Shown piece after piece: positions 7,671 to 32,906 of a stretch of DNA of 51,826 nucleotides. The notes below the pieces were generated by a model. That model worked only from the letters and a program-made list of their open reading frames with translations, was not told where the DNA came from and ran no database searches. The position numbers and the translations under genes are program-made. Every line of letters begins with the position of its first letter. Position 1 is the first letter of the stretch. Source of the stretch: a virus; IMG/VR virus record IMGVR_UViG_3300031902_000012, positions 1 to 51,826 of that record; one strand, written 5' to 3'.

Positions 7671-7681
7671 TGTCATACACT
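7671..7681 (+). promoter_or_regulatory. TGTCATACA element upstream of the fibre operon
   Basis: TGTCATACACT on the plus strand, 60 bases before the start of 7739. The same core occurs on the minus strand at 30171-30180, 36214-36223 and about 45115-45123. A TAC-type -10 preceded by TGTCA fits a shared promoter class; there is no convincing -35. Confidence 0.4.
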
Positions 7682-7738
7682 TTTAGTTGATAGCGTCACG
7701 CTCGAAACTGTGCACCACCGCCCATAGGAGGCTTTCCA

Positions 7739-8476
7739 GTGGTCAATATCGTCAACTACAGCACCACGAGCATTGGCGGGTTCCGGCACTATTCCGGCCT
7801 CCTGCCCGCGGTTCCGGGTGACGGCGCCTCACAGGCGCAAGCCTCCGTTCGCTATTTCCACGTTCCAGCCGCCAACGCCGTCGCGACCTACCGCGGCGAC
7901 ATCATGGTGGCCGCGCAGGCCGCGCCCAACGCGATCGGCACGCCAGGCGGCGCGGATCTGCCCTCGAACATCGCAGCGCCTGGTTCGCTCGTGATCGGCA
8001 ACGGCGGCGGCTCCGGGCTCGGCAACCAGTCGATCGCGCCGAACGCGATTCGGTTCGTGGTTGGCGACACCACCAGCATCATCCTGGGCGTCGTGGTCGG
8101 CTTCGGCTTCACGCTCTACACCGCCAAGAACGGCTTCCAATACTCGCCGGCGTCGACCGAACAGTGGGTGGCCGTCGAGACCGACCCGCAGATTGAGATG
8201 TATATCACGGTCCCGACCGTGCCGGGCACCGCGTTCAACCTCAACCTGATGGGCGGCGCCACCGTCCAGGAAAACGCCGGCCAGCAGATTTCGCGCTTCG
8301 GCGTTTCGGGCCTGTCGCTCAGCGCGACATTCGCGACCACGAGCACGCTGCCGCTTCGCGTCCTCGGCTCGGGCGAGCAGATCGGCGACGACCCGACCGC
8401 CGCCGGTTTCGTGGCGAAGGTCATGTTCAACCAGAATCGGCACTACAAAGGCGGCGGCGTCCTCGTTCTCGACTAA
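7739..8476 (+). CDS. Beta-rich structural protein without signal peptide, first of the fibre region
   Basis: A 245-residue protein; GTG start at 7739 with AGGAG eight bases upstream. No cysteine, no signal peptide, many Gly, Ser, Thr, Val residues, typical of decoration or fibre proteins. Motifs such as RYFHVPAANAVATYRGDIM and NQNRHYKGGGVLVLD do not point to a family I can name. It is followed 35 bases later by a signal-peptide gene, the first of several such pairings. Confidence 0.6.
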   Translation: MVNIVNYSTTSIGGFRHYSGLLPAVPGDGASQAQASVRYFHVPAANAVATYRGDIMVAAQAAPNAIGTPGGADLPSNIAAPGSLVIGNGGGSGLGNQSIAPNAIRFVVGDTTSIILGVVVGFGFTLYTAKNGFQYSPASTEQWVAVETDPQIEMYITVPTVPGTAFNLNLMGGATVQENAGQQISRFGVSGLSLSATFATTSTLPLRVLGSGEQIGDDPTAAGFVAKVMFNQNRHYKGGGVLVLD

Positions 8477-8511
8477 CCTGCCCAACCGACGAATCATCAG
8501 GAGCTACCTCT

Positions 8512-9114
8512 ATGAAGAACTCCCTCTTTCGCCTGGTTCTGGCGCTGCTGCTGATCTCGGCGGCCAGCACGGCAGACGCGCAAGTCGTCACCAAGCAGCC
8601 CTTCTTCGCCCCGACAAACACATGGGTCGATCTGGCCAACGGCCCGATCGAAGTCATGCCGATCGAGGGCAGCGCGATCGTTTACACCTCGAGCGGCGGT
8701 GCCGGCGTCACCGGAACGTCCGCCGGCACCACCGCACTGACCTTGAGCGCCACGCCCGCAGTCGCGCCCTGCGTCGGATGCGTCATCACTTGCGCACCGA
8801 CCAACACGGCAGCGTGCACCATCCCGGCCAACACGACCGTGACCGCGTTCAACGGCACCACCGGCGTGACGACATCGGCCAGCACGACCGTAACGGCCGC
8901 GTCGCTTACCTGGGGTGCTGCGTGCCCTGTCACCGGCACGTTCCCGCCCGCGCCAAGCGCCACCGGCAACACCTTGAGCGCTCCGCTCAACCTGCGCGCC
9001 GGCGTCGACCCGTTCGTCTCGGGCATTCCGCTTTACACGGCCGGGCGCGTCTGCCTTTACGGCGGCCAGCAGCAGGGCGGCACGGTCGTAACCTTCGCGA
9101 TCGGCGCGCATTGA
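8512..9114 (+). CDS. Secreted Cys-rich protein with Sec signal peptide (fibre region)
   Basis: A 200-residue protein; ATG 8512 has AGGAG eight bases upstream. Residues 1-24 are a Sec signal peptide (MKNSLFRLVLALLLISAAS, cleavage likely after ADA). The mature part is Thr/Ala/Gly-rich with clustered cysteines (PCVGCVITC, AACTIP, AACPVTG, RVCLYGG), consistent with folding in the oxidising periplasm. Repetitive TTVTA-type beta sequence resembles fibre domains. The next gene, 9116, begins one base after its stop. Confidence 0.65.
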   Translation: MKNSLFRLVLALLLISAASTADAQVVTKQPFFAPTNTWVDLANGPIEVMPIEGSAIVYTSSGGAGVTGTSAGTTALTLSATPAVAPCVGCVITCAPTNTAACTIPANTTVTAFNGTTGVTTSASTTVTAASLTWGAACPVTGTFPPAPSATGNTLSAPLNLRAGVDPFVSGIPLYTAGRVCLYGGQQQGGTVVTFAIGAH

Positions 9115-9115
9115 T

Positions 9116-9493
9116 ATGGCCGGCGTCGACTCAGCGAACCAGTTTCCGAACTCCGCGATGGCCCGTGCGATTCGCATGGGCCAGTCGCAGATGCGAACGG
9201 TAGATTCGCCAGGGCGCATCGTGCTGCCGGCGCAAGAAAACGTATCGATCGCGTCGGCAGTCGGGCTGACCATCCCTGCGCCGTCGCTGGCGAACAACTG
9301 GACGGTCGTAACCTATGCCGTCGTGACCGCCGTTGGCGGCCCGCTCTATGTCACCTACGACGGATCGACACCATCAATCACCAACTACGCGGTTACAGTC
9401 AGTTCCGGCCAGTCCCTGTCGATCCAAGGTTCGGCGGCTCTCGCTGCCGCGAAGTTGCAAGGCACCTCCATGTCGGTCAGCTACTGGAGCTAG
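9116..9493 (+). CDS. Small beta-rich virion-type protein, no signal peptide
   Basis: A 125-residue protein with no cysteine and no signal peptide. The start (MAGVDSANQF) is polar; the rest has alternating hydrophobic residues (WTVVTYAVVTAVGGPLYVTY). It lies one base after 8512-9114 and four bases before the signal-peptide gene 9498. Probably a structural partner; no family recognised. Confidence 0.55.
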   Translation: MAGVDSANQFPNSAMARAIRMGQSQMRTVDSPGRIVLPAQENVSIASAVGLTIPAPSLANNWTVVTYAVVTAVGGPLYVTYDGSTPSITNYAVTVSSGQSLSIQGSAALAAAKLQGTSMSVSYWS

Positions 9494-9497
9494 TCGA

Positions 9498-10991
9498 ATG
9501 AGAAAGTTTCTGGCGGCGGCCTTCACGCTATGCTTCGCGGGGGCCGCTTTCGCGCAAAACGGGCTGCCAGGCGGCACGGTCACCTCGATCGCATCGACCT
9601 GCGGCGTCTCCGGCGGCACGATTACCACGACGGGCACGCTTAAGGGCTCCGCGACGCCTAATGCTCAGGTTGGCACGTCCTACGCATTCCAAGATGGCGA
9701 TTGTGGCAAGGTCGTCACGTTTACGAACGCGGCGGCGATTGCTGCCACGATCGCGCAAGCCGGCGGTGGCGGCAACTTCGTCTCTGGTTGGTTCGCGACG
9801 CTGATTAATGAGGGCGCGGGAACGGTCACCTTGACGCCCGCGACCTCGACAGTTGACGGCGCGGCCAGCATCACATTGACGACCAACCAGAGCGTCGACC
9901 TGTTTTCGGACGGGACGAACTACTTCACGGCGCGCGGACGTGGTAGTTCGGTAACTCCGGGCGGAAGTTCCGGCAATCTCCAGACGAATAACGGTAGCGG
10001 CGGCTTCGCTGGCATGCCGTCGATGACTGGTGACGTCACGCTCAACACTGGCACGGGCGCCTCGACACTCAAAAATACAGGACCTGGGGCGACAGGGCCG
10101 ATTGGCTCGGCAACAGTAGTTCCGATTGTTACGATTGATGCCCAAGGCCGTATTACTGCGCTGACAAGCACCACCATCACGCAGCCCGCCGGTGCCAACC
10201 CAACGGCTACGGCAGGACCGACAGCAGTCAACGGCGTCGCAACGACATACATGCGATCAGATGCAGCGCCGGCCGTGCAGCAGGGATCAAGCTCGGTAAA
10301 AGGCGTCGTCCAGGTTGATAATACTTCTGTTACAGCATCTGCCGGCGTAATCGGAACGGCTGCGCATACTGGCGACTGCACAAGTTCGGCCGGCTCCCTC
10401 GCCCTTAAATGTCAGCCTCTGTACCCGCTCTATATCGCAAGCAATTGGTACAACGGCGGTGCTGACAGATTTACGTCGCAGGCTTCGTCATCGACAACCG
10501 GCGCAAATGTCGTCCGCTGCTATCCAGGGTATTTCTACGGCACTGCGACAGTGAGCACGCTTGGGGGGCGCGTCAATGCGACCTCTGGCAACGTGCAGCT
10601 TGCTGTCTACGCCAACGCGGCAGGGCGCCCAGATGGCGTTGCGTTAATGACAACTGGCAACATATCGGCGACGGTTGCCGGACCCGTCAGCGGCACCGTA
10701 AATAGCGCCACGCCAAAGCAGATCTCCGGCGTGCAGTTGGTATGGTGGTGCTCAAACGCTGACAATGCCACGGTTACTCTGTCAGGAGTCGGAGGCGGTA
10801 ACTTCGAAATGGGGGCGCTGATGGGAAGCGCCACGCAGGGTAATATCCTTGCCGGCGGTCCCGCGACGGTCATCGGTGTGACATTCACATCAACGTTCGG
10901 AACGTGGCCGAACGCGACTGGTAAGACGTTCACTGAGGCCGCGACGACGACGATGCCAATCGTGCAGTTTTTAGTTTCGAGCATCCCATGA
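9498..10991 (+). CDS. Signal-peptide-bearing tail-fibre-like protein
   Basis: A 497-residue protein. Residues 1-19 form a Sec signal peptide (MRKFLAAAFTLCFAGAAFA, then Q). Tail-fibre-type segments follow: an internal beta domain (FQDGDCGKVVTFTN ... VDLFSDGTNYFTARG), the common fibre motif NGVATTYMRSDAAPAV near residues 245-265, and a C-terminal beta domain (YPLYIASNWYNGG ... PIVQFLVSS). Several cysteines are spaced in pairs. Fibre sequence joined to an export signal is unusual. Its stop overlaps the start of 10988 (ATGA). Confidence 0.7.
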   Translation: MRKFLAAAFTLCFAGAAFAQNGLPGGTVTSIASTCGVSGGTITTTGTLKGSATPNAQVGTSYAFQDGDCGKVVTFTNAAAIAATIAQAGGGGNFVSGWFATLINEGAGTVTLTPATSTVDGAASITLTTNQSVDLFSDGTNYFTARGRGSSVTPGGSSGNLQTNNGSGGFAGMPSMTGDVTLNTGTGASTLKNTGPGATGPIGSATVVPIVTIDAQGRITALTSTTITQPAGANPTATAGPTAVNGVATTYMRSDAAPAVQQGSSSVKGVVQVDNTSVTASAGVIGTAAHTGDCTSSAGSLALKCQPLYPLYIASNWYNGGADRFTSQASSSTTGANVVRCYPGYFYGTATVSTLGGRVNATSGNVQLAVYANAAGRPDGVALMTTGNISATVAGPVSGTVNSATPKQISGVQLVWWCSNADNATVTLSGVGGGNFEMGALMGSATQGNILAGGPATVIGVTFTSTFGTWPNATGKTFTEAATTTMPIVQFLVSSIP

Positions 10992-13900
10992 TCAGAAGTG
11001 TTATCACCGCATTCATCATCGCTCTATTTGCGGCCGGCGGTGCTGAAGCTCGGCCAAGGGGCATTGTCGCGATCAACACGGGGTCATCGTTCAACGGTGG
11101 CGCGGTGCAAGTCAACTTTAACGATACTCAAGTTGACTTCGCTTGGCCGTTTACGAACTTCGTCAAGAATATGGCGACTTGGTCGCTCGTCAACAATCTT
11201 GGGTCGCCGTCGCCTGCGGACATTGATCTTTATGGATACCCTATTCCTGGGACCCCGACCATGGCGTCTTACGGGGGCGTCTACAACATTGTCCACATGC
11301 CAGCGGAGCTTTATGTAGTCGGCAACTGCATTCCAGCGCAGGCGTCGGGGTACTGCCTGTCGATGCGGGTTAACGGGAAAGGCACCGTACTCAACCCAGG
11401 CACGATAATCACGGGATCTGCGCCGGCCGCGAACATCACGACCGGATCGACGACTGTCCTAGGGTTCGCGGGGGTGGCGCAAGATTTCCGTGCTGGGATG
11501 GAAGTGCCGATTACGGGCGCGAGTGGCGTCGTCCAGGGCGCTAACGGCCCGCATCCTGGGAGCGGGTTATCTGCGGACGTGTTTACGGTTTGCACCGCCA
11601 ACCTGACTACGACACAGATACAACTGTGCTTGAATGATCAGGTAACACCGCTGCAAAGCACGGGGACCGCCAGCACGGCGGCTACCGTCTCGTATGGCCG
11701 TGCAGCGGTAGGGGTTGCTACAAAGGGTCGGTTCGTAACGGTCGTCAATGGGAGCCCGGAACAGTTCAGCGTAGGCATTACTGCAACGGACGCGACTTCG
11801 CCCATCACTTATGCCAACGACATCGACGCCGGGCTAGTGATGGTGTTGCAAGGTTCGGAGGAAACCAGATATCAAAGCGGTTGCACCGATTGCATATTTG
11901 GCTCGCAATTCTTGAGCCGGCTCAAGGGCTCGAATGTCGGGATCTTACGCGCTCTAAATTCCGTTGGCAGCAGTAACGCAACCAACTTCAGCCGCGAAGC
12001 TGTGTGGGCTGATCACAAGCCCGTCTCTTACGTAAATTGGGCATCTGACTACGTCACGGCGCAGACGGCAGTAAATTCAGGGACGAAGATATTTGCCGGA
12101 ACGACAACCAGCGTAGGGAACGATTATTCTGTTACGTTTGGTTCAGGTGCTCCCCCCGATAAGACGAGGTTGGTTGTCCAGTGGGATGCGCAAGCGGCTA
12201 GCACTAACAACTCAGGGAGTGGGGTCGCTGCTCAGGTTACGGCTACGTCTCATGGGCTAAGCGCAGGGGACCCGTTTAATTTTTTCTACACTTTTACCGG
12301 GGCCACAATCCCGACGTTCACCTCGACGTTTACCGGAACCGTGTCTGGCAACACTCTGACAGTTTCCGGTTCCAATGCCGCAATTCCATTTCCAGGTCGA
12401 GCCCAGTTTGGGTTTTCTGCTGGCGTCCAGGCAGGCACGACGACGGTAAGCGGTGCGTGCATCACGTCAGCTACGATAACCGCACAGCCGAGCGGGACAC
12501 CAAACGGCGATGGTAACTATACGATCAGCGGCGGTGCGCAGACTGCCGGTCCTTGCACCATGACGGCGACGGGTGCGATCCCGACGAGCGGTCAGAACCA
12601 ACCTGTCTATTTCGTCTCCAGTGTCATTGATGCTGATCATTTTACTTTCTCCCCAGCAAGCGGCGGCCCGACAGTTGCTACGACCAACAGCGGCGCAAAT
12701 CTGTTGGTGCACAAGGTTGTCGTCAATTCGTCGGTCACGTTCGCAGGCGGCAACACCGCAACTATCAATTGGGCGAACCACGGTCTTAATATAGGCGATT
12801 GGGTCGGCTTCTACGCAAATTCCGGTGGCCTTCCAACGGTACAGGCTACTGGGGCATTTATCCTAAACAACCTGCTCTATTGCGTCGTTTCCACCCCGAC
12901 GTCAGGAACAATCACTGTAGCATCAGCGTGCGGAGGAACCGCGCTGACGTTCTCGACCACAGGCGGCACGATCATCGCGTCTCGCGCTCCAACGCTCAAC
13001 TATAATGGCACGGGCGCTGTTCCCATCATGTCGGCACTGTCGCAGCCGATCGCAACTGGGCAGGCATCAGCGCCCTATGCTCGACTGTTTGGCAAAGCTC
13101 AGCAGTTCTCAGTTCTTGTTTATGACAAGCTGGTCAATGCTTGGCTCAAGGTCGGTTCGGACGGAAGCACGGGAACATCAGCCTATATGACTGGAGGGTG
13201 GCCTCCTGAAATATTTGTCAGGCTTTGCTATGTAATCGGGGCGCAGCCGTGGTTCGTATCACCACCATACACGCTTGACGGTTATACCGATCCGACAACG
13301 CACGTTGGCGGTATCACAGACTACATGCCAAGCTTGATGACCTACATCAGGGACAATTATCAAAACACGATCGCCCCGTGGATGGTCCCGTATATCGAAG
13401 TGCACAATGAGCTATGGAACAATCCGTTCCCTGGGACGCAGGTTTCTTACGCCCACTCTGGGGCGTACAGCGAATCGGGACGGCCTGTCTATGCCGGTTG
13501 GAACCCAACCGGCAGCAGCGTGAACGCATACGCAGGCAAGGTTGCATCTGTTCTTGGGCAGGCCGCACAGAACGTATACGGCGGAACGCTCGGGCAGAAG
13601 TATCATATGATACTTGGGTTTCAAACGGCCAGCATGGCAAATACGTCGGGTTCGGCGTCCCCGAACGGACCTGCGGCTAATGCTGAGCGTATGACTTCAT
13701 CCAACTATGTCGGCCAGACGGTTGCCGCGCAGTCTGGCTACGCTCTCGACCCCGCGAGTAAGTGGGTCTCCGATGTGGCGGGTACCGGATACGTTAACCC
13801 TGGGCAGTATACGACAGCAGACGAGACGGCAGAAGCCGCAACGTGGGCGGGCGGCGTTGTGGCCGGCTCTATCACGGCGGGGAATCCAGGAACCTTAAAT

Positions 13901-14788
13901 ATCACGACGTTCCGCATTGGAACAGTTGGCGTAGGCACGCAGATCAGCAGCGCAGGCGTTATTCCAGGCACCACGATCGCGGCTTGTCCTGGCGGCAATT
14001 GCTCAATAGCTGGAGCGTATACGCTTGACCGCGCCTACACGTCTCCGGTCGGGTCCAACGACTTCAGTACGTTTGCATCATCACCATCAGGCGCTCAAAA
14101 TATTGCATTGCAGACCTATATTGATTCCATGAACTACACTGCGCAGTTTACGGGCTCTGTGTCAGGCACCACTACTCTGACGGTATCAAGCGTCACGTCT
14201 GGGAAAATCTATCCGTCAACAGCGGGAGCCGGTGCCGTTATTCGGTCAAACGGTTTTCCAGATTTGTTGCTATGGGGTGCGGCGGCTCCTTCCTTGGTTG
14301 CGATTAAGCAGCAATTGACTGGGACGCCGAACGGCGTCGGTACGTATCTCCTTAGCTCGGCAGTGACGGCCTCCGGAACCATGTATTCAACTCACCAATT
14401 TGGGATCATGGGGCTTGACCAAGTATATGCTAACATTTCGATCTATGCGAATACGTATACGAACCGGGATAGTAAGCACCCTGGGATACTACAGTACGAG
14501 GGCAGCTACACTCCGGACTACGCCGTTCAAGGCGTGAACGGCGGGCGAAGCCAAGTGGATCAATTCAGGTGGGCAGGGAAAAATGTGGCCAGCACGCCTT
14601 TGATGGCAAACGGCATCCTCGGTTATATCCAGCTCAACAACACGACGTTTAAAAACCGTGGCGGCCTCTACCCGTCTTTGTTCCAGTTCTCTGGAAGAAA
14701 CCCAACCAATAACGACTGGTCGGCTCTCGAAGATATATACCAGCAGACGCAATCACCCATTTGGAACGGGTTTAATACATGGCATTGA
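10988..14788 (+). CDS. Secreted putative glycoside hydrolase / depolymerase, 1266 residues
   Basis: Residues 1-22 are a Sec signal peptide (MIRSVITAFIIALFAAGGAEA). The long body has repeated Gly/Thr-rich beta segments and cysteine pairs (GNCIPAQASGYC, CTDC, CPGGNC). Residues 802-811 read YIEVHNELWN, like the acid/base region (N-E-x-W) of clan GH-A glycosidases; nearby aromatic and Asp residues (PWFVSPPYTLDGYTDPTTH) also fit. I therefore infer a polysaccharide-degrading enzyme exported by the host or carried as a spike. The second catalytic Glu cannot be placed by eye. Coupled to 9498 upstream; overlaps 14779 by ten bases. Confidence 0.6.
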   Translation: MIRSVITAFIIALFAAGGAEARPRGIVAINTGSSFNGGAVQVNFNDTQVDFAWPFTNFVKNMATWSLVNNLGSPSPADIDLYGYPIPGTPTMASYGGVYNIVHMPAELYVVGNCIPAQASGYCLSMRVNGKGTVLNPGTIITGSAPAANITTGSTTVLGFAGVAQDFRAGMEVPITGASGVVQGANGPHPGSGLSADVFTVCTANLTTTQIQLCLNDQVTPLQSTGTASTAATVSYGRAAVGVATKGRFVTVVNGSPEQFSVGITATDATSPITYANDIDAGLVMVLQGSEETRYQSGCTDCIFGSQFLSRLKGSNVGILRALNSVGSSNATNFSREAVWADHKPVSYVNWASDYVTAQTAVNSGTKIFAGTTTSVGNDYSVTFGSGAPPDKTRLVVQWDAQAASTNNSGSGVAAQVTATSHGLSAGDPFNFFYTFTGATIPTFTSTFTGTVSGNTLTVSGSNAAIPFPGRAQFGFSAGVQAGTTTVSGACITSATITAQPSGTPNGDGNYTISGGAQTAGPCTMTATGAIPTSGQNQPVYFVSSVIDADHFTFSPASGGPTVATTNSGANLLVHKVVVNSSVTFAGGNTATINWANHGLNIGDWVGFYANSGGLPTVQATGAFILNNLLYCVVSTPTSGTITVASACGGTALTFSTTGGTIIASRAPTLNYNGTGAVPIMSALSQPIATGQASAPYARLFGKAQQFSVLVYDKLVNAWLKVGSDGSTGTSAYMTGGWPPEIFVRLCYVIGAQPWFVSPPYTLDGYTDPTTHVGGITDYMPSLMTYIRDNYQNTIAPWMVPYIEVHNELWNNPFPGTQVSYAHSGAYSESGRPVYAGWNPTGSSVNAYAGKVASVLGQAAQNVYGGTLGQKYHMILGFQTASMANTSGSASPNGPAANAERMTSSNYVGQTVAAQSGYALDPASKWVSDVAGTGYVNPGQYTTADETAEAATWAGGVVAGSITAGNPGTLNITTFRIGTVGVGTQISSAGVIPGTTIAACPGGNCSIAGAYTLDRAYTSPVGSNDFSTFASSPSGAQNIALQTYIDSMNYTAQFTGSVSGTTTLTVSSVTSGKIYPSTAGAGAVIRSNGFPDLLLWGAAAPSLVAIKQQLTGTPNGVGTYLLSSAVTASGTMYSTHQFGIMGLDQVYANISIYANTYTNRDSKHPGILQYEGSYTPDYAVQGVNGGRSQVDQFRWAGKNVASTPLMANGILGYIQLNNTTFKNRGGLYPSLFQFSGRNPTNNDWSALEDIYQQTQSPIWNGFNTWH

Positions 14789-15099
14789 TCTCTGACCCGA
14801 AGACCAAATGCCCGGCGACCGGTTTCAAAAGCAAGTGCTCGACACTGGCCGCGTGCTGCCCGAAGTTCGTGACGATTCGGGGTCGAGATCCGCAAACCGG
14901 GGTTGAGACTGACCGATCGGGCTGTGTCGACAGCTTCCTGCCCATGCTGCTGATCGAGAATGCTCAGGTGTCGCGCCAGACAGGCGCGGCGGTCGAAACG
15001 CTTCGGAACGAAGTTGCAAAAGACCGCGTTGCATCCGAAGATGCTAGGCAACAGGCGTTGCATGCCTTAGGTGGTACGCAGCGCCGAATTTCAGGGTAA
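14779..15099 (+). CDS. Cys-rich conserved phage hypothetical protein
   Basis: A 106-residue protein. The N-terminal third has CPATGFKSKC and LAACCPKFVTIRGRDPQTG, with CVDSFLPMLLIENAQ next, which I recall as a conserved small protein in phage tail regions. The rest is a helical, charged tail. No signal peptide is present. It overlaps the end of the glycosidase-like gene by ten bases. It may bind metal; function unknown. Confidence 0.6.
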   Translation: MALISDPKTKCPATGFKSKCSTLAACCPKFVTIRGRDPQTGVETDRSGCVDSFLPMLLIENAQVSRQTGAAVETLRNEVAKDRVASEDARQQALHALGGTQRRISG

Positions 15100-15115
15100 C
15101 CTCGGATGGTTTACG

Positions 15116-15325
15116 ATGACGCTAGAAACGCTCTACGGCTTCGTGAATGGACACGGGGTCGAAGGGGTCCTGCTCGTCTGGCTGTGGCTGGAGCGGGACG
15201 AGAGAGTTTCCTCACAGAGGGAACTGTCGAAAATATCGCAAGACACCGTGATGGCCCTGAACGGAATGCGGGGGCTGCTGGACCAAGCAGTGAGCCTTCT
15301 GCATGGTCATGGAAAACGACAATGA
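15116..15325 (+). CDS. Small hypothetical protein
   Basis: A 69-residue protein (MTLETLYGFVNGHGVEGVLL...) with a short hydrophobic patch and a charged helical end. Its stop overlaps the next start (ATGA at 15322). The ribosome site is weak. A competing ORF in another frame (from 15106) lacks such coupling. Confidence 0.45.
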   Translation: MTLETLYGFVNGHGVEGVLLVWLWLERDERVSSQRELSKISQDTVMALNGMRGLLDQAVSLLHGHGKRQ

Positions 15326-15501
15326 GCCCTTGGGTGCGGCTGCTCGAAAAGTTGGCCCGCGTCCCGCACCGCTGCGCGGACTCTGATCGCGTCCACGAAG
15401 CTGCAATCGAAATGGGGCACGCTGCAACCCGGCTCCGCGCCTGCCTGGAGCTTCAAGACCCGGTCGCGGCAACCGCGGTGTTCTTTCTCTCCGAAAAATA
15501 G
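15322..15501 (+). CDS. Small hypothetical protein
   Basis: A 59-residue protein (MSPWVRLLEKLARVPHRC...) coupled to the upstream gene by an ATGA overlap. Helical and basic with two cysteines. No family recognised. Confidence 0.45.
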   Translation: MSPWVRLLEKLARVPHRCADSDRVHEAAIEMGHAATRLRACLELQDPVAATAVFFLSEK

Positions 15502-15509
15502 GTGGCTTC

Positions 15510-15977
15510 GTGCAGAAAGTGCTCAACTATATCGCGGAGATCGCCAACGCAGATTCCGCGATCGTGGCGAACGTGTTCTGGTTGGTGCTGTTCGCCCACG
15601 TCGGCAGCGTCTACCGGCGCCTGCAGCAGTCGGACCCGGCCAACCCGGAGACGGTCAGCGTTGCTTACGCTGACGTGCTCCGCACCATGTTGCTCAACGG
15701 AATTGCGATGTGGGTTGAATGGTTCGGCGTGGTCATCACTCGCGACACAGTTTTTTACTGGCGGCGCTTCGGCGGGGTGTCCGGTGGTGCCGGCCCGATG
15801 ACGCCGGCGCAAACCGGTGCGATGGTCGTCGGCGCGACCCTGATGATTATTGGGACAGTGTTCATGACCTATGTCTTGAGCCGTCGCACCCTCGGGCATT
15901 CGCCATGGGTGGCCTCGGTCGTGGCGGTCACCGTCACAACGTTCGTCTATCTGGCCTTCTTCCCTTGGACCGGGTGA
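15510..15977 (+). CDS. Multi-span membrane protein
   Basis: A 155-residue protein from GTG 15510 (GGTGG upstream). Hydrophobic segments near residues 17-32, 60-80, 100-125 and 132-152 suggest three or four membrane spans. The position inside the fibre region, away from the lysis genes, makes a holin role uncertain; a membrane accessory or exclusion protein is equally possible. Confidence 0.55.
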   Translation: MQKVLNYIAEIANADSAIVANVFWLVLFAHVGSVYRRLQQSDPANPETVSVAYADVLRTMLLNGIAMWVEWFGVVITRDTVFYWRRFGGVSGGAGPMTPAQTGAMVVGATLMIIGTVFMTYVLSRRTLGHSPWVASVVAVTVTTFVYLAFFPWTG

Positions 15978-16028
15978 TGTGTTAGACCTGGAACTGCATC
16001 ACGTCCGGGGCAGCTGGGAGACACGCAC

Positions 16029-16316
16029 ATGACCGTCAAGTCCGACCTGCAGGGCATTGTCGACAGCCTTGAGGCCCTTATGGTCAGGGCCGACGCGCTA
16101 GAGAACAAGCACCTGCGCGATATGCTGGATCTCGGCCGGGGCCGTCTGATCGACGCCGCCAAGCATCCCGACATCGAGCTGATCGAGAAGGACGCGCCGC
16201 CCGAGCCGGGCAAGAATCCCGGCTTCGCGCACCCTGACGACGTTAGCCTCAATCCGGACGGCACGCTGCAGCAGGCGCCAAACGTCGTTGGCCGCGCGGA
16301 CGTGCGTAAGGAGTAG
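16029..16316 (+). CDS. Helical hypothetical protein
   Basis: A 95-residue protein with GGGAG nine bases before ATG 16029. The first half is an amphipathic helix (LQGIVDSLEALMVRADALEN); the second half is Pro/Asp-rich. No family recognised. First of four closely packed small genes. Confidence 0.55.
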   Translation: MTVKSDLQGIVDSLEALMVRADALENKHLRDMLDLGRGRLIDAAKHPDIELIEKDAPPEPGKNPGFAHPDDVSLNPDGTLQQAPNVVGRADVRKE

Positions 16317-16322
16317 CCCTGC

Positions 16323-16505
16323 GTGAGCAAAGGCCTGCCCAGCAAAGCGAAGGTTGGCGTACCGGGCCGGTACGTCAATATCAGCCCTGACACCTATTTC
16401 ATCGCCAAGCGGATGGAAATGGTGGGCAGGCTTCGCCCTGGGCAGGCCTTGATGCTTGCGGCCACGTTGCCGAACAAGGCGCCGAAGAAAGGTAAGAAGG
16501 CATGA
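16323..16505 (+). CDS. Small basic hypothetical protein
   Basis: A 60-residue protein from GTG 16323, with AGGAG nine bases upstream. It ends in a Lys-rich tail (KAPKKGKKA) and overlaps the next start by four bases. Could bind nucleic acid; not recognised. Confidence 0.5.
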   Translation: MSKGLPSKAKVGVPGRYVNISPDTYFIAKRMEMVGRLRPGQALMLAATLPNKAPKKGKKA

Positions 16506-16708
16506 CCAGTTTCAAGGGCCGTACCGCGTTCATGAAGGACGGCAAGGGTAAGGACACCAAGTACGGCGGTCGGTCCGCGTTGGGCAAGAAGATGGGCAAC
16601 GTCGACAAGGCGGCCGACATCGACGACAGCAACCGCCGCGTCGCCAAGTCCCGCGTAGGCGATGGCGGGGGTTGCTCGACTGTGTTCCACTCGCGGTTTG
16701 GAAAGTAG
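16502..16708 (+). CDS. Small Lys/Gly-rich hypothetical protein
   Basis: A 68-residue basic protein (MTSFKGRTAFMKDGKGK...) coupled to its upstream neighbour (ATGA) and directly abutting the next gene. No domain seen. Confidence 0.5.
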   Translation: MTSFKGRTAFMKDGKGKDTKYGGRSALGKKMGNVDKAADIDDSNRRVAKSRVGDGGGCSTVFHSRFGK

Positions 16709-17125
16709 ATGTTCTACCGGCCGGGCGGCAGCGCAGGGCGGATCAACGCGCAGTACGATCAGGTCTACACGGACCAGATCGGCGGTGCGACCGCGTGGCT
16801 GCCGATCAACGAGGGCTTCAAGATCGCGGTCAATATTGCTCGCGCCTCGATCGTGTTCGGCAACTCGGCGGCCAGCGCCGTGACGCCATCGCCGATCGCG
16901 CCCGAGGTCCAGGTGTTGATGGAGCGCAAGATGTTCGGCGGCGACCCGGATGCCGCTGCGATCGCGGTCAACCAGTGGCAGAACGAGGTCATCGCGACGA
17001 CAGTCAAGGCGCAGGCCATGGGCTGGGTGCGGCTCCGCGTTGTGAACATCAACAACAGCGACGGGACCGGCGTGCTGCTGGCGCTGCAGATCAGCAAGAA
17101 CGGCGACGCCAATGTCGGGGTTTGA
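16709..17125 (+). CDS. Hypothetical structural protein
   Basis: A 138-residue protein starting one base after the previous stop. Mixed alpha/beta sequence with no cysteine, no signal peptide and a C-terminal beta pattern (WVRLRVVNINNSDGTGVLL). It overlaps the fibre-base gene 17112 by 14 bases. Possibly a minor tail component, judged by neighbours only. Confidence 0.5.
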   Translation: MFYRPGGSAGRINAQYDQVYTDQIGGATAWLPINEGFKIAVNIARASIVFGNSAASAVTPSPIAPEVQVLMERKMFGGDPDAAAIAVNQWQNEVIATTVKAQAMGWVRLRVVNINNSDGTGVLLALQISKNGDANVGV

Positions 17126-18059
17126 GACCGGGGCGCGCGTCAAGCAGTTCGGCTCAATCTTGCGCGGCTTCGGGCCGCCGGTGCCGCAGGCCGGCGTTGT
17201 CGGGGACCTCTACGTCGACACGCAGACCTGGCAGCTTTTCAATAAGCGATTCGCCGAAGCGGGCGTCGACCCGTGGGGGCACTACCTGTTCATCGTCCCG
17301 CCGACCTACCGCACGACCCTGAAATGGTTCAGCGCCTACCCGCCCGGTGACGACATTGGCGTGAACGGCGATTATTGCCTGGCGTGGGCAGGCTGGGCCA
17401 ATTACGGCCTGCAGCCCTCAATTTACGGCCCGAAGGCGCTCGGCACCTGGCCCGAAAACGGCAACGGCCCCAACACCACGATCGCGGCGCTCGGTGCCGG
17501 CACGGTGTTGCCGGTCGGCCTGCTGGACGAAGGCAGCGCCATTACCTACTCGACGTCGTCGCAGTTGATCGTCGTTGGCCTGCTCGACGAATATATTCTG
17601 GCTGTCCCGGCGACCGCGAACGCTGGCGACCCGGTGTCGCAGCTCGGCTTGCAGTCGGGGCCGGCGCTCGTGCCCGTCACCCTCAACCCGCTTTACACCG
17701 CAACGGACGAGATAATCCTCAGCGGCAGCGCCGGTACAGCTCGGCTTCCAGCCGCCGCCGCGACGGTCGTCATCGCGGTGTCGGATCTTGAGGTCGGCAT
17801 CGATTCGGCGTCGGCGCCAACCTCGGTCACGCTGCCGAGCGTCGCTGCGTGGGCCGCGGCCAACCCGAGCAGCCTGGAATTGACCGTGTTCGATTACACC
17901 GGCCACGCGCTCGCGAACAACATCACGCCGACGCTGAACGGGACCGACGTGTTCACGCAGGGCGTCGTGCCCGTGATCTTGAACAACTACGGCGAGTTCA
18001 AGCTGCGTCCGATCATCACCGGCGGCGTCAACCAGTGGTTTGTGAGGGCCGTCGGATGA
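17112..18059 (+). CDS. Fibre-base-like protein (paralogue of 18820-19230)
   Basis: A 315-residue protein. The N-terminal 115 residues (RVKQFGSILRGFGPPVPQAG ... NYGLQPSIYGPKALGTWP) are closely repeated in 18820-19230. A Val/Leu/Thr-rich beta region follows, with VTLNPLYT near residue 194, and a C-terminal beta domain ending WFVRAVG. No signal peptide and a single cysteine. Its stop overlaps the start of the signal-peptide gene 18056 (ATGA). Probably an adaptor or base of a tail fibre. Confidence 0.6.
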   Translation: MSGFETGARVKQFGSILRGFGPPVPQAGVVGDLYVDTQTWQLFNKRFAEAGVDPWGHYLFIVPPTYRTTLKWFSAYPPGDDIGVNGDYCLAWAGWANYGLQPSIYGPKALGTWPENGNGPNTTIAALGAGTVLPVGLLDEGSAITYSTSSQLIVVGLLDEYILAVPATANAGDPVSQLGLQSGPALVPVTLNPLYTATDEIILSGSAGTARLPAAAATVVIAVSDLEVGIDSASAPTSVTLPSVAAWAAANPSSLELTVFDYTGHALANNITPTLNGTDVFTQGVVPVILNNYGEFKLRPIITGGVNQWFVRAVG

Positions 18060-18823
18060 GACTGATTGCGGCAGTACTGCTGACCTTTTTCTCGAACGTG
18101 GCGTTCGCGCAGTCGGGCCTCATTCCGCAGAACTCGGTCGTGGCGGGGCCGACGGCCGGCGGCCAGGGCTTTCCGCGCGCCAGGTCGCTCACGGCCGCGG
18201 ATCTGCCGTTTCTCGGCACTGGTGTGGGGGCCGCACTCGGCACAGCCGTAGGCTCGGCGGGGTCGGTCGTCCTCAATGGCGGCGCGCTCGGTACGCCTTC
18301 GTCAGGCGTCGGAACGAACCTCACCGCGCTAAATGCATCCAACCTCGCGAGCGGCACCGTGCCAACTGCGCAGCTGCCCGCCGGCCAGTACCCGGGTACG
18401 GCGACGAACGACAACGCCTGCACGACATGTGCCGGGGCATTCCTTTCGTCGAACGTCATCGTCGCTTCGGCGGTGTCGCTCACGACCGCGACGCCCAAGG
18501 ACATCACCACGCTGACCTTGACCGCGGGCGATTGGGACGTGTCGGGCATGTGCGAGACGCAGCCGACCGGCGGCGCCGTCGTGACCGGGTTCATATGCGC
18601 GATCGGGCCGACGCTGAACACGCTCAACACGACGGTGTCGGACAGCAGCGCTTTCAGCCTGGACAGCTCGACGCAGGCCGCGAGTGCGAACCTGTCGCTC
18701 ACGACGGACACGGCCCGCATTTCCTTGGCCGGATCTGCGACGTACCACCTCGTGGCGCAGGCGACGTTTGCGAGCGGCACGGTGGGCGGGTTTGGCAAGA
18801 TCAGAGCGCGGCGGATGCGATGA
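18056..18823 (+). CDS. Signal-peptide-bearing tail-fibre-like protein
   Basis: A 255-residue protein. Residues 1-18 form a Sec signal peptide (MRLIAAVLLTFFSNVAFA, then Q). The mature protein contains the tail-fibre motif LNASNLASGTVPTAQLP (about residues 92-108) and a beta-rich C-terminal domain with cysteine pairs (DNACTTC, SGMCETQ...GFIC). It is translationally coupled to 17112 before it and 18820 after it, both of which lack signal peptides. Confidence 0.7.
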   Translation: MRLIAAVLLTFFSNVAFAQSGLIPQNSVVAGPTAGGQGFPRARSLTAADLPFLGTGVGAALGTAVGSAGSVVLNGGALGTPSSGVGTNLTALNASNLASGTVPTAQLPAGQYPGTATNDNACTTCAGAFLSSNVIVASAVSLTTATPKDITTLTLTAGDWDVSGMCETQPTGGAVVTGFICAIGPTLNTLNTTVSDSSAFSLDSSTQAASANLSLTTDTARISLAGSATYHLVAQATFASGTVGGFGKIRARRMR

Positions 18824-19230
18824 GCGGCTTCGGTTCCATCGCGCGCGTCAAGCAGTTCGGCGCAATCCTGCGCGGGCTTGGCCCCCCTGTGCCGCAAGCT
18901 GGCGTGGTCGGGGATCTGTATATTGATGGGCAGACGTTCCAGCTTTTCAACAAGCGATTCGGAGCCGCCGGGCCGGACCCCTGGGGCCGCTATCTGTTCG
19001 TGGTGCCGCCCACCTACCAGATAGCTTTGAAGTGGTTCACGGCATCCGCACCGGCGAAGGATCTCGGCGTGAACGGCGATTACTGCCTGCTGTGGGGCGG
19101 CTACCCAAACTACGGCCTGCAGCCCTCAATCTTCGGGCCTAAAGCCGCCGGCGCGTGGCCGGGGTCTGCAACGCCGGTCGCCGTGACGCTGAATCCTCTC
19201 TACACCGGAGAGGACGTGCATGGCATATAG
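18820..19230 (+). CDS. Short fibre-base-like paralogue of 17112
   Basis: A 136-residue protein that repeats the N-terminal domain of 17112-18059 (RVKQFGAILRGLGPPVPQAG ... LQPSIFGPKAAGAWP) and then jumps to a VAVTLNPLYTGEDV end matching residues about 190-200 of the longer copy. It looks like the longer gene with its middle and C-terminal domain lost. Coupled to 18056 (ATGA) and overlapping 19220 by 11 bases. Confidence 0.6.
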   Translation: MSGFGSIARVKQFGAILRGLGPPVPQAGVVGDLYIDGQTFQLFNKRFGAAGPDPWGRYLFVVPPTYQIALKWFTASAPAKDLGVNGDYCLLWGGYPNYGLQPSIFGPKAAGAWPGSATPVAVTLNPLYTGEDVHGI

Positions 19231-20380
19231 CCCGACTACAGACTTCGTCGGACTTTGGCGCGCGAGCGGCGGTAACGTTTCGAAGCTCGAAATGCCGGGC
19301 CTGGATTTCGTCGTCGCGGCTCTCGGCCGCGCGGGGCTGATCACGGTCACCGCATCGGCGACCGCGCCAGTCGCCAACCAGGCGACCACAGCGTGGCTGC
19401 ACACGGCGTCGCCGAGTTCGAGCGCCGAAGGTGCGCTGAACCTCTGGAACGCGTCCGCGAGCGCCTACGCGCCCGCCACACCCCCACTGTTCCTGGCCTT
19501 CCTGGACGCGTGCACGGGCGCCAACGGGGTGTCGTGGTGGACGTCCACCGGCGGTCCGCCGTTGAACACCGTGGGCCTGAATGGAGACTTCGCCGTCCGG
19601 CTCGACCAACCAGGCGGCATCTACGGGCCGAAGGTCGCGGGCGCGTGGCCCGCAACGCCGCTGCCCGGCACAACGACGGCCTTCATCAGTGCGGATCTCG
19701 ACGCAGCATTCGGCGCGGCTACCGGCGAAATGCTGTTCCGCGGCATCTCGCTATGGCAGGGGCTCCCGATCGGCGCTGCGGACACGATCCTGTCGCCGGT
19801 GTCTGGCGTTCCCGCCTGGCGAACGCTGAACGTGCTGCTTGACGAGATCTTTGGGACGACACGCGGCTCTATTCTGTCGCGTGGTGCGTCCGCGTGGGCC
19901 GGCATCCCGCCAGGGGCAGCGGGCACCGTGATCAAGTCCAACGGCCCTGGCGCCGACCCATCCTATGCGGTGCCTGAGTTTGCCAGCGGCACTTCGATGC
20001 TGTTCTATCAGGCGACAGCCCCGACCGGATGGACCAAGCGAACGGACACCAACGACATCGGCCTGCGCCTGACAGGCGGCGGAACCGGCGGCACGATCAG
20101 CGGCAGTGTGGCCTTTTCGACGGTGTTCGGGCAGACAGCTACGGGCGGCACCGCGATTAGCGTTGCGCAGATGCCGGCGCATCACCACACGACAACAGCG
20201 GATGGGCTGCCGGTCGAATACGCCGGCGCCGGCAGTTCAGGCGTCACTTCCGCGGGCGTAGCGCAGCCGACGCAAACATCGGTTTTCAGCATGGCCGACA
20301 ACGGCGGCGGATTGCCGCACACGCACTCCATCAACATGCAGCTCACGTATGCGGACGTGATTGTTTGCGTGAAGAACTGA
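19220..20380 (+). CDS. Tail fibre protein with tail-collar domain
   Basis: A 386-residue protein. The first 105 residues (MAYSPTTDFVGLW ... LEMPGLDFVVAALGRAGL) are shared with 20388-21005. The C-terminal part (about residues 260-386) is a phage tail-collar domain: QATAPTGW, QMPAHHHTT, LPHTHSINM and YADVIVCVKN, where the histidines would bind metal ions in a trimer. No signal peptide. Likely a host-binding fibre with the shared N-terminal domain serving as the attachment part. Confidence 0.7.
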   Translation: MAYSPTTDFVGLWRASGGNVSKLEMPGLDFVVAALGRAGLITVTASATAPVANQATTAWLHTASPSSSAEGALNLWNASASAYAPATPPLFLAFLDACTGANGVSWWTSTGGPPLNTVGLNGDFAVRLDQPGGIYGPKVAGAWPATPLPGTTTAFISADLDAAFGAATGEMLFRGISLWQGLPIGAADTILSPVSGVPAWRTLNVLLDEIFGTTRGSILSRGASAWAGIPPGAAGTVIKSNGPGADPSYAVPEFASGTSMLFYQATAPTGWTKRTDTNDIGLRLTGGGTGGTISGSVAFSTVFGQTATGGTAISVAQMPAHHHTTTADGLPVEYAGAGSSGVTSAGVAQPTQTSVFSMADNGGGLPHTHSINMQLTYADVIVCVKN

Positions 20381-20387
20381 GGATGCA

Positions 20388-21005
20388 ATGAGCTACGCAC
20401 CCACGACCGATTTTATTGCGCTGTTGCGACTCACGGCCAACGGCGTCCGGAACGAACGCATGCCGGGGCTCGACTACGTCGTCTCTGCGCTCGCGCGGGC
20501 CGGGCTGCTCAACATTTCGGTCAGCCAGACTGCGCCCGTTACGAACCAAGCGGCGACCGCATGGTTTCGTCCTGCGGTACCAACGTGGACCGCGGAGGGT
20601 ATACTCTACCTCTGGAACGCCACGACGTCAGCTTACGAGGTTGCCACGCCCGCGTTGTGGACCGCATTTCTGGTGGGCGCGTCGTCGGGCTATCTGTTTC
20701 AATCGGTGGCGTCTGGCTCTGCCACGATTAACCCCGGCGTATCGTTGCTGGCTATCCAACGCGTCAGCCCGACTGCAACGGCGTTGCTGCTGCCCAACCT
20801 CGGCGCGCAGTGGAATTCGGGCCGCGAGCTCCGGATCGTCGATTTCTCGACGGCCCTCACCGTGCACACCACCACGCTGACGACTCCTGATGGTTCCACC
20901 ATCATGCAAAAAACATCATGGAGTCTGCGATCAACTCCCGACAGCCTTGCAGGCGTCATGTTGACGCCGTCCCCAAATCTCAACTCGTGGGTCATCACGC
21001 CATGA
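20388..21005 (+). CDS. Fibre protein sharing the N-terminal domain of 19220
   Basis: A 205-residue protein. Residues 1-100 (MSYAPTTDFIALLRL ... MPGLDYVVSALARAGLL) closely follow 19220; the C-terminal half differs (beta-rich, ending LNSWVITP). No signal peptide and no cysteine. Its stop overlaps the ATG of the signal-peptide gene 21002, repeating the non-secreted/secreted pairing. Confidence 0.6.
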   Translation: MSYAPTTDFIALLRLTANGVRNERMPGLDYVVSALARAGLLNISVSQTAPVTNQAATAWFRPAVPTWTAEGILYLWNATTSAYEVATPALWTAFLVGASSGYLFQSVASGSATINPGVSLLAIQRVSPTATALLLPNLGAQWNSGRELRIVDFSTALTVHTTTLTTPDGSTIMQKTSWSLRSTPDSLAGVMLTPSPNLNSWVITP

Positions 21006-22411
21006 AGAAGCTGCTTGTTGCTTTTGCCGCGCTGCTGCTCGCGGCGCCCGCTGCTGCTCAGTGGCAGACGCCGAATCACTCTATCCCGATCGGCCAAGGC
21101 GGCGGCGTTACGGGTTTCAACAGCGTAGGCCCCGCGGCGGCAGACCTGCCGCTTGTCGGCAACGGCGCGAGCGCAGACCCGTCGTTTCGTGTGCTACCCA
21201 ACGCAGGGCTCGCAAACCCGACTGTTTCGGTGAACGGCGTAACGTGCGTGTTGGGTTCGTCGTGCATCCCTGGTTTCATGAATTCGTTCACCGTCAGCCA
21301 CGCAATCGCGCCTGCGGATTGCGGCGGCATCGTCCAGATGGGGTCGGGCGCGCAAACGGGATTGACACTGACGCTGCCGGCCAGCCCCCTGAGCAACGGC
21401 TTTACGGGTCCGTGCCCGGTGACGATAATTGGGCAGGCGTCCCGCGCAATCATACTCTCTGGCTTCTCCGGGTTGGCGCTTACATCCCCGAACATGCTGT
21501 GGCCAACGAAGTCGTTTTCAGTGGCGATCAACAGTGCGGGCGCATGGGCACTGACCGCTCCGGACGGCCGCTACCGCCCACTCGGGACGTTGACGCTTAC
21601 GGTCGACACCAGCGGCAGTGACGCCGCGGGAGACGGTCTCGGGGTTGGCGGCGCAACGTCGTTCCGCAATATCCAGACCTGCATGAACGCGATTTCGAAT
21701 TTTTTCGATTTCACGGCCACCGGCAGTCAGCCGACGTGCGGGCCGACAGTGGGGCAGACGTTTACGGAAGCGTTGACGTGGGCGTGGCCCCCGGTAGGGA
21801 CCAACACGCTGAACCTCGCGGGGCAAGGCGGCGCATTCATCCTGCGATCGCCGAGCGCGGCGCCGGCGCTGTTCGCCGGTAACGGCGCCAACATTCAGCT
21901 TACCAACATCACGATCACAGGAACGGGGGCTGGTTGCGGCACTGGGTGTATTCACGTCAGCATGCACAACGCCAGCGTCGTAGAGCCACTGGCGGGCGTG
22001 ACTTGCGACAACACAGGCGCCGGCGGTGCTTGTTTCAAGACCGACATCAACACCGCGGGCGGCGCCCGCCTGAACATCGACAACGGGCTCACCGTGTCGG
22101 GCACTGTCGGTACCATCGTGGATCTCAACGGCGGATCCTCGATGATATGGAATTCGACGCTTGTCGCTTCGGGCCTGACGCTGGCCCAAGTGTTCGCCGG
22201 TCGAGGCGCGGGTACGAATCTGGTGCTCCAGGGCAACTTCGGCGTCTCCGGTAGCTTCGGCACCGCGAGGCAGTGGGCGATCCTGAATAACGCCACGCTG
22301 TGCAACGTCAGCGGCGTGGCCGTCCCCGGCAGCACCGCAGGAATCGCTTCCGGTGCCGGCTTTGCGGCGGGTGTGATCGTCAACAGCGGGACGTCCGCCA
22401 GCGCCTGCTGA
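21002..22411 (+). CDS. Signal-peptide-bearing Cys-rich fibre/spike-like protein
   Basis: A 469-residue protein. Residues 1-19 are a Sec signal peptide (MKKLLVAFAALLLAAPAAA, then Q). A fibre-like N-terminal part (GFNSVGPAAADLPLVGNG) is followed by a Gly/Thr-rich body with a beta-helix look (IQLTNITITGTGAGCGTGC, VSMHNASVV, LNIDNGLTVSG). At least a dozen cysteines occur, many as close pairs. Parallel beta-helix folds are common in phage spikes and polysaccharide lyases; no catalytic motif is clear. Coupled to 20388. Last gene before the lysis cluster. Confidence 0.65.
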   Translation: MKKLLVAFAALLLAAPAAAQWQTPNHSIPIGQGGGVTGFNSVGPAAADLPLVGNGASADPSFRVLPNAGLANPTVSVNGVTCVLGSSCIPGFMNSFTVSHAIAPADCGGIVQMGSGAQTGLTLTLPASPLSNGFTGPCPVTIIGQASRAIILSGFSGLALTSPNMLWPTKSFSVAINSAGAWALTAPDGRYRPLGTLTLTVDTSGSDAAGDGLGVGGATSFRNIQTCMNAISNFFDFTATGSQPTCGPTVGQTFTEALTWAWPPVGTNTLNLAGQGGAFILRSPSAAPALFAGNGANIQLTNITITGTGAGCGTGCIHVSMHNASVVEPLAGVTCDNTGAGGACFKTDINTAGGARLNIDNGLTVSGTVGTIVDLNGGSSMIWNSTLVASGLTLAQVFAGRGAGTNLVLQGNFGVSGSFGTARQWAILNNATLCNVSGVAVPGSTAGIASGAGFAAGVIVNSGTSASAC

Positions 22412-30290: not shown

Positions 30291-31220
30291 TTGCAGGTCA
30301 TCGATAGATCGCTCCAGAGTTCCCAATACTGGCCTGGATTGTTTGCCCTTTTCGGCATGGACTATGAACGCCTTCCGAAAGTCTACACGCAGTTTTTCGA
30401 CACGAAATCGTCGGAAAAGGCTTTCGAAGAGTTCATGACCGAGCGCGCGGGCCTTGGCCTTTCCGTCATGCAGCCCGAGTTGACGCCGGTGCAATTCGAC
30501 GCCCCGAACGAGGGCTATCGCACGCAGGTGACGCATGCATCCTACGGCCTCGCCGTGGCGATCTCGCGCGAAGCCAAGGACGACAATCTCTACGAGGACG
30601 TCGCCTCGCGGATGATGAAGGAAATGGCGTTCAGCGCCAACCAAACGCAGGAATATATCGCTCACGCGCCGCTGAACGTCGCCGGCGATGCAGTCAACGG
30701 GTTGCGCGCCGATGGCGTGCCGCTGATCTCTCCGTCACACGCCACCGCGTCAGGGTTGCAGTCCAACCAGCTCGTGTCGGCCAACGTTTCGGAACTCGCG
30801 TTCGAGAACGCCGTGATTCAGATCAGCTACGCGCGCAACGGCCGCGGTTTCATCATTAACCTGCAGCCCAAGCGTGTCATTCTCTCCCCGGAGAGCGGCC
30901 CCGAGACCCGACGAATCCTCGGTTCGCCGTTGCAGTGGAACGCGTCCACCAACAACATCAACGTACTGCGCTCCACCGGCGCGATTCCGGAAGTGATCGA
31001 GACGCCGTACCTGGTCGACAAGGACAACTATTTCATCCAGACGTCCGAGCAGGACAAGGACAACGGCCAGGGCATGACGTTTTGGGAGCGCTCGCCGCTT
31101 GAAGTGCGCGAAGATTCGAACTGGTCGAATCAGGCGTCGCTGGTCGCGCAGTGGTTCCGGTGCGCCGCTTCCATCATTGACTTCCGTACGGTTTACGGTA
31201 GTTTGGGCGCGTCCGGCTAG
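30291..31220 (+). CDS. Major capsid protein
   Basis: A 309-residue protein with the HK97-fold coat pattern: an N-terminal helix (QVIDRSLQSSQYWPGLFALF), APNEGYRTQVTHASYGLAVA, a P-domain helix, DGVPLISPSH, ILSPESGPETRRIL, NNINVLRSTG and a C-terminal WFRCAASIIDFRTVYGS. Its position next to portal and before tail-completion genes agrees. Start is TTG 30291, with GGAG seven bases upstream; no ATG or GTG fits better. A strong terminator follows at 31252. Confidence 0.85.
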   Translation: MQVIDRSLQSSQYWPGLFALFGMDYERLPKVYTQFFDTKSSEKAFEEFMTERAGLGLSVMQPELTPVQFDAPNEGYRTQVTHASYGLAVAISREAKDDNLYEDVASRMMKEMAFSANQTQEYIAHAPLNVAGDAVNGLRADGVPLISPSHATASGLQSNQLVSANVSELAFENAVIQISYARNGRGFIINLQPKRVILSPESGPETRRILGSPLQWNASTNNINVLRSTGAIPEVIETPYLVDKDNYFIQTSEQDKDNGQGMTFWERSPLEVREDSNWSNQASLVAQWFRCAASIIDFRTVYGSLGASG

Positions 31221-32591: not shown

Positions 32592-32906
32592 ATGGCAGGC
32601 GCCAACGTACAGTTTTACACGCTCGACCACGAACCCGCGAGCCCCGGGGAGGAGCAGTTGTTTTCATTTCGGTGCCCTACACGCGGCACCGAATGTTTTG
32701 GGCTCCATATCGCTAACCGCACAGGCATAAAACGCGACCCGCAGGGGCAAAATGGCGGTGTTGCGCATTGGGAGTGGAACGGCAGTCGGGACTCGCCTAC
32801 GTTTTCGCCATCGGTAAACTGTCAGCGTTGCTGGCATGGCTACATTCGTGGGGGGCGCACGGTCAGCTGTGCGGGTACCGACGAACCGGAGCCAGACAAA
32901 GCATGA
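32592..32906 (+). CDS. DUF6527-like zinc-binding small protein
   Basis: A 104-residue protein. FSFRCPTRGTECFGLHI, AHWEWNGSRDSPTFSPSV and CQRCWHGYIRGGRTVSC follow the DUF6527 pattern of conserved Cys/His and WxW...PT-SPS residues. It sits between the gp4-like and gp10-like genes, and its stop overlaps the latter's ATG. Role unknown; metal binding likely. Confidence 0.65.
   Translation: MAGANVQFYTLDHEPASPGEEQLFSFRCPTRGTECFGLHIANRTGIKRDPQGQNGGVAHWEWNGSRDSPTFSPSVNCQRCWHGYIRGGRTVSCAGTDEPEPDKA

Follow-up and report, generated by a model that had tools for sequence, protein, structure and literature searches.

Predicted Sec-exported fibre and depolymerase proteins encoded beside putative tailspike adaptors in a clade of soil viruses

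Results

Genes of the fibre region

The window analysed here is a whole stretch of 51,826 bases from the IMG/VR virus record IMGVR_UViG_3300031902_000012, and our subject is its fibre region, in which genes for proteins with a predicted Sec signal peptide lie among genes for proteins without one. A preliminary description, made from the sequence, had named five genes as secreted (8512, 9498, 10988, 18056 and 21002, after their first positions), six interleaved ones as non-secreted (7739, 9116, 17112, 18820, 19220 and 20388), and had proposed an exported fibre or depolymerase system. The same fibre-region pattern is shared by a clade of soil viruses in IMG/VR, with genomes of ~52 kilobases (kb) and terminases that are 69-79% identical. 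Relatives were taken from public metagenome-derived viral contigs, 15 of which were covered completely or for the greater part, and fibre-region gene counts were obtained from 14 near-complete clade genomes. The genes and signal peptides of the window are as follows ("secreted" meaning predicted to be exported; lengths in amino acids, aa):

7739..8476, +, gene for a non-secreted partner protein of 245 aa without cysteine; immediately precedes the 8512 family in all cases
8512..9114, +, secreted protein 8512, 200 aa, a beta-rich domain whose cysteines form three pairs; present throughout the clade
8512..8580, +, predicted signal peptide of 8512, residues 1-23, MKNSLFRLVLALLLISAASTADA, cut before Q (rule-based test, alignment)
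9116..9493, +, small non-secreted protein, 125 aa, no cysteine
9498..10991, +, secreted fibre-like protein 9498, 497 aa, 6 mature cysteines
9498..9554, +, predicted signal peptide of 9498, MRKFLAAAFTLCFAGAAFA, cut before Q (rule-based test)
10988..14788, +, large secreted protein 10988, 1266 aa, 13 mature cysteines; ATGA overlap with 9498
10988..11050, +, predicted signal peptide of 10988, MIRSVITAFIIALFAAGGAEA, cut before R (rule-based test)
17112..18059, +, non-secreted fibre-base protein (GVVGDLYVDTQTW type), 315 aa
18056..18823, +, secreted fibre-like protein 18056, 255 aa, 4 cysteines; ATGA overlap with 17112
18056..18109, +, predicted signal peptide of 18056, MRLIAAVLLTFFSNVAFA, cut before Q (rule-based test)
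18820..19230, +, another fibre-base protein like 17112, non-secreted, 136 aa
19220..20380, +, non-secreted adaptor, 386 aa, collar-like His-rich C-terminus (alignment)
20388..21005, +, non-secreted tailspike adaptor, 205 aa, no cysteine (predicted fold)
21002..22411, +, secreted branch fibre 21002 (putative), 469 aa, 12 mature cysteines; ATGA overlap with 20388
21002..21058, +, predicted signal peptide of 21002, MKKLLVAFAALLLAAPAAA, cut before Q (rule-based test, alignment)

Signal-bearing proteins account for 15.6% of the window as coding share. The genes had been said to be joined mostly by ATGA overlaps; such 4-nucleotide (nt) overlaps are found in the window only at the starts of 10988, 18056, 18820 and 21002, whereas 7739 and 8512 are separated by a gap of 35 nt and neither 8512/9116 nor 9116/9498 overlap.

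Signal peptides and their conservation

Signals were called with a rule-based test of our own, which looks for a basic n-region, a hydrophobic core and small residues at -3/-1. Exactly the five genes named before passed among the window genes of at least 100 aa, and none of the six interleaved genes scored; the one further scorer was a 55-aa membrane-like open reading frame (ORF) at 24098. On a 39-gene stretch of E. coli used for calibration, 6/6 exported proteins were found and the false calls were three membrane proteins only. Scores were rare in five control phages (3/127 proteins of at least 140 aa, T7 gene 18.5 among them) and in unrelated-frame ORFs of the clade genomes (47/1333, 3.5%). 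In the near-complete genomes, 56/220 proteins of at least 100 aa scored in the fibre region versus 20/467 elsewhere, and the signal-bearing genes of the clade cluster between the transglycosylase and the terminase.

We then compared the families, whose counts include repeats, as some contigs were fetched more than once. A signal-like N-terminus was present in 55/55 members of the 8512 family, 46 by the strict test, 5 from an alternative start and 4 by eye (MLDYAKSWARRLAINTLATLALAAAFSDAHA before Q and similar). The search with 21002 gave 51 matches, 2 of which are really adaptors pulled in via a common shaft motif, and the remaining ones were all signal-bearing (42 strict, 3 with a corrected start and 4 by eye, MKFGKLEVVLFVLFNMLVASPAIG before Q). 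With the strict test, no signal was detected in the adaptors (0/82), the 7739 family (0/45) or the 17112 family (0/108). Apparent homologues lacking a signal were considered as cytoplasmic versions and rejected, since most were start-codon miscalls or lay at contig edges.

In both secreted families, column identity was 34% in the signal, 75-78% at the cleavage site (-3 to +2) and 46-63% in the mature N-terminus, and cleavage sites of the A-x-A/Q type (the slash marks the cut) were present in 24/24 and 19/19 aligned members. A signal that drifts while the cleavage site and the mature start are kept is the behaviour of a working signal peptide. No lipobox was seen, as judged by eye, in the listed signal peptides of the fibre-like proteins. 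The prediction that the five fibre-region proteins are exported via Sec and signal peptidase I is thus strongly supported.

Cysteine pairing

The mature parts of 8512, 9498, 18056 and 21002 contain 6, 6, 4 and 12 cysteines and that of 10988 contains 13. As had been described, the non-secreted genes have few or none (7739, 0; 9116, 0; 17112, 1; 18820, 1; 19220, 2; 20388, 0). Parity was counted on the mature part of proteins of at least 140 aa with at least two cysteines. The number was even in 62 of the 66 signal-bearing proteins, compared with 110/179 (61%) for the remaining proteins encoded by these genomes (Fisher p 1e-7) and 44/80 in control phages. Even parity spans many unrelated single-member groups as well as the 21002 family despite its changing C-terminus, so that a single ancestral number does not account for it. 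The cysteines of the 8512 family occupy three column pairs that are gained or lost pair-wise, with half a pair in 0/19 sequences; these sequences are kin, so that the binomial p-value overstates independence, and no counter-pattern was seen. Even and pair-wise varying cysteines point to an oxidising compartment, and the simplest reading is that the signal-bearing proteins are oxidised outside the cytoplasm, which backs export independently of the signal calls.

Nature of the secreted proteins

The secreted and fibre proteins of the window could be placed in no Pfam or NCBIfam family, and PHROGs gave only one weak match, to a family of unknown function, for 17112; for 7739 there was neither a Pfam nor a PHROG match. 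A fold search against the PDB with the AlphaFold2 (AF2) model of 8512 (predicted local distance difference test, pLDDT, 73.8) returned no significant match. The tail-fibre motif NSVVAGPTAGG..LTAADLP is present in 18056. The glycosidase-like motif reported earlier, EVHNELWN, is visible in 10988, but neither a Pfam match nor a PDB sequence match supported it.

Among the relatives, a signal-bearing 21002-family member of 1270 aa (L036:9992-13801) ends in Peptidase_S74 (40.3 bits versus a Pfam cut-off of 22), a domain found in this family member only, the window protein having no match. Ninety-nine residues (41%) are common to a secreted 448-aa protein and an 808-aa non-secreted tailspike carrying the adaptor domain described below. 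Weak matches on other secreted members were to alpha-L-arabinofuranosidase, BNR/Asp-box, beta-helix and LamG, and the 8512-type domain is fused with a glycosidase-like domain in some relatives, being arabinofuranosidase-like in G008. In the 21002 family, the mature N-terminus is conserved (QWQTPNHSIPIGQGGGVTGF) and the C-terminus variable, matches ending at about residue 60-90 in most relatives. Judging from Peptidase_S74, the stretch common with the tailspike, the weak glycan-active matches and the G008 fusion, the predicted secreted set is one of fibre and depolymerase proteins.

Several relatives have, directly after the 8512 family, a conserved protein of ~360 aa with the hydrophobic N-terminus MFWLGAIVSLCYVPG (G007 9686-10759 and G012 7675-8748, both in rotated coordinates; L032:4797-5885), which is not in the window.

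Adaptors and their coupling to secreted genes

The N-terminal domain of 20388 recurs, by alignment, in 19220 and in the 808-aa non-secreted tailspike of L037, which suggests that it is a tail adaptor. The AF2 model of 20388 (pLDDT 76.2) matched the N-terminal part of CBA120 TSP4 (7rfo) with an E value of 1.2e-3, a probability of 1.00 and template modelling (TM) scores of 0.35/0.23; the only other plausible PDB folds were the baseplate of Klebsiella phage KP1 (9f4b) and the capsid spike of Pa223 (9ny6). In CBA120, the XD domains of TSP4 are the docking points of other tailspikes (PMC8825819). The model thus predicts for 20388 a fold resembling the branching adaptor region of TSP4.

Non-secreted genes followed by secreted ones had been described as recurring pairs, and two of these are conserved in the metagenomic relatives. 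In 43/44 pairs of 20388 and 21002 genes, the overlap was 4 nt, or 19 nt from an upstream start, and in the latter cases there is an internal Met near the 4-nt position; we take the two genes to be coupled in translation. Between the 7739 and 8512 families, the distance was 9-136 nt in the relatives (43 pairs). Alternation as a general rule was rejected, since G006 contains six consecutive secreted genes.

The clade and its other genes

Outside the fibre region, the window contains the following genes:

2204-6220, virion transglycosylase, 1338 aa
22467-23237, endolysin
24268-25806, terminase large subunit
30291-31220, head protease/capsid-type match
32903-34366, head-closure Hc3 match
36241-36861, DNA-ejection match

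This set of head, ejection and lysis genes is podovirus-like. The ends of several relatives are repeated, suggesting that the maps are circular and ~52 kb long. Two contigs exceed one genome length, G001 (98,428 bases) and G003 (IMGVR_UViG_3300001167_000001), and the start of the latter recurs after 52,677 bases, seemingly in an over-run circular assembly. The window terminase is only ~28-31% identical to those of isolate phages, and a tblastn search of the fibre genes against 50,697 phage records gave no match and hence no isolate carrier. Two scans of bacterial genome contigs revealed no relative of the terminase or the adaptor, and since these contigs gave no match, the phages appear to be virulent.

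Further signal-bearing proteins were also observed. Beside the terminase, relatives have one with the mature start AADMPVKAP or similar (L004:12697-13500, L021:9277-9978, L030:11359-12084 and equivalents), not found in the window. We take it to be like alphaproteobacterial outer-membrane beta-barrel proteins; the family search gave no more than a single weak match, to OMP_b-brl (E 0.009), and a plasmid search no match. The set contains one RlpA/DPBB lytic transglycosylase match, which probably falls on a signal-bearing protein of 169 aa outside the fibre region (L066:6709-7215), possibly a lysis factor. In Vibrio phage 219E41.2, whose terminase is 28% identical, two adjoining signal-bearing genes (L122:13225-14231) that match no Pfam family immediately follow a 1067-aa gene of unknown function. 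The occurrence of exported proteins next to large late genes may extend beyond this clade.

Discussion

At the sequence level, good support for the proposed system of exported fibres or depolymerases comes from the signals, the A-x-A/Q sites, the paired cysteines and the fibre or glycan-active domains on signal-bearing proteins. Sequence cannot separate coating of the cell, a block to superinfection and addition to virions after lysis, all suggested earlier; the last is favoured because of the adaptor fold, the gene coupling and the conserved mature N-terminus. We tentatively propose, at slightly less than an even chance, a two-compartment build with cytoplasmic adaptors and Sec-exported, disulphide-bonded branch fibres and depolymerases released at lysis, those of the 21002 type docking on 20388. 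The virion-attached adaptors 17112, 18820, 19220 and 20388 would be made in the cytoplasm, while 8512, 9498, 10988, 18056 and 21002 would be exported by Sec, lose their signals to signal peptidase I at the A-x-A site and fold in the periplasm, where their disulphide bonds would form. Lysis would free them together with the virions, and at least the 21002-type fibres would dock on the 20388 adaptor with the conserved mature N-terminus QWQTPNHSVPIGRG as a docking tag, the variable C-terminus binding or cleaving host surface glycans. With more reserve, we suggest that a tailed-phage clade may complete its virions outside the cytoplasm by Sec export, Dsb-type oxidation and fitting onto XD-type adaptors at lysis. 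Signals, cleavage sites, cysteine pairing, fibre domains, the split into exported and non-exported families and the adaptor-like predicted fold are read from the sequences; actual export, docking after lysis and the glycan targets we infer from them.

Several points weigh against a two-compartment build. The fold match of 20388 reaches only a modest level (E 1.2e-3; TM 0.35 when scaled by query length), the cysteines of 10988 are odd in number, and the rule-based test alone cannot tell signal peptides from N-terminal membrane anchors. Stand-alone arabinofuranosidase-like and BNR-repeat secreted proteins resemble free enzymes and have no docking N-terminus. It is also hard to see how proteins that leave the cytoplasm ahead of lysis would meet virions with any efficiency.

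A serious rival, possible although we hold it to be the less probable account, is that these are free depolymerases or adhesins that never join virions and that, periplasmic until freed at lysis, clear or mask exopolysaccharide and debris receptors and so aid the spread of progeny in the soil matrix. Signals and disulphide-type cysteine pairing would be expected here too, several secreted genes have sugar-enzyme-like domains without a virion docking motif, and the number of secreted genes varies per genome. However, the conserved mature N-terminus with exchangeable C-termini, the Peptidase_S74 domain and the strict coupling to a tailspike adaptor are left unexplained. The enzyme-like members are explained equally well in either way, and a mixture of both is possible.

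Conversion of the cell surface, in which exported proteins occupy or degrade the receptors of the infected cell and block superinfection or phage loss, we consider improbable. The envelope-type signal-bearing proteins that relatives have near the terminase (ADxPVKAP-like mature N-terminus) would fit it, but no lipobox (by eye, in the listed signal peptides) or outer-membrane anchor was seen in the fibre-like proteins, long-term conversion would be of little value to phages that appear virulent, and the share of the window taken up by these genes would be costly for exclusion alone. Even less credible is an uncleaved helix that anchors the fibres in the virion or host membrane with no export, another suggestion of the preliminary description: the rule-based test leaves room for it, but the cleavage sites are kept in all aligned members while the helix drifts, and the cysteines imply an oxidising compartment. 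Chance mimicry by alanine-rich, high-GC (guanine plus cytosine) coding sequence, which scored in 12-27% of cases after shuffling residues 2-30 of these proteins beside the null rate in unrelated frames, is refuted by signals in every member of two families and in none of the neighbouring families, by cysteine parity and by clustering in the fibre region.

In the open-access literature searched, sets of fibres exported by Sec were not reported for tailed phages, whose fibres, on the usual view, fold and are assembled in the reducing environment of the cytoplasm. The predicted 20388 fold suggests a likeness to the branched tailspike complexes known from Ackermannviridae, namely TSP1-4 of CBA120, and from podovirus G7C (gp66/gp63.1), where a virion adaptor with XD-type domains docks further tailspikes; in the window, a free-standing protein of 205 aa would serve as the adaptor, and the fibres proposed as branches bear Sec signals and paired cysteines, while the CBA120 spikes are, to our knowledge, cytoplasmic products that lack a Sec signal. 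Tail fibres with the Peptidase_S74 intramolecular chaperone resemble the 21002-family member ending in this domain, which adds a preceding signal peptide and the cysteine pattern of its family. Phage-encoded envelope proteins with signals, such as Lom and Bor of lambda and the T5 lipoprotein Llp, are small and host-modifying; they are exported through Sec, as predicted for the clade proteins, which differ in being built like fibres or depolymerases and in their link to tail adaptors. Filamentous phages, which assemble at the membrane, have virion proteins with cleavable signal peptides (pIII and pVIII, with disulphides in pIII); the likeness would lie in signal-bearing virion proteins, whereas the window has the terminase and connector genes of a tailed phage.

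If the proposed build is true, a conserved Sec-routing clade would break the rule of cytoplasmic assembly and add an assembly step after lysis, and phages would gain access to disulphide-stabilised, enzyme-rich fibres. Signal peptide hits by SignalP in phage tail regions, which are usually ignored, would then inform on how virions are built or on how the host surface is controlled.

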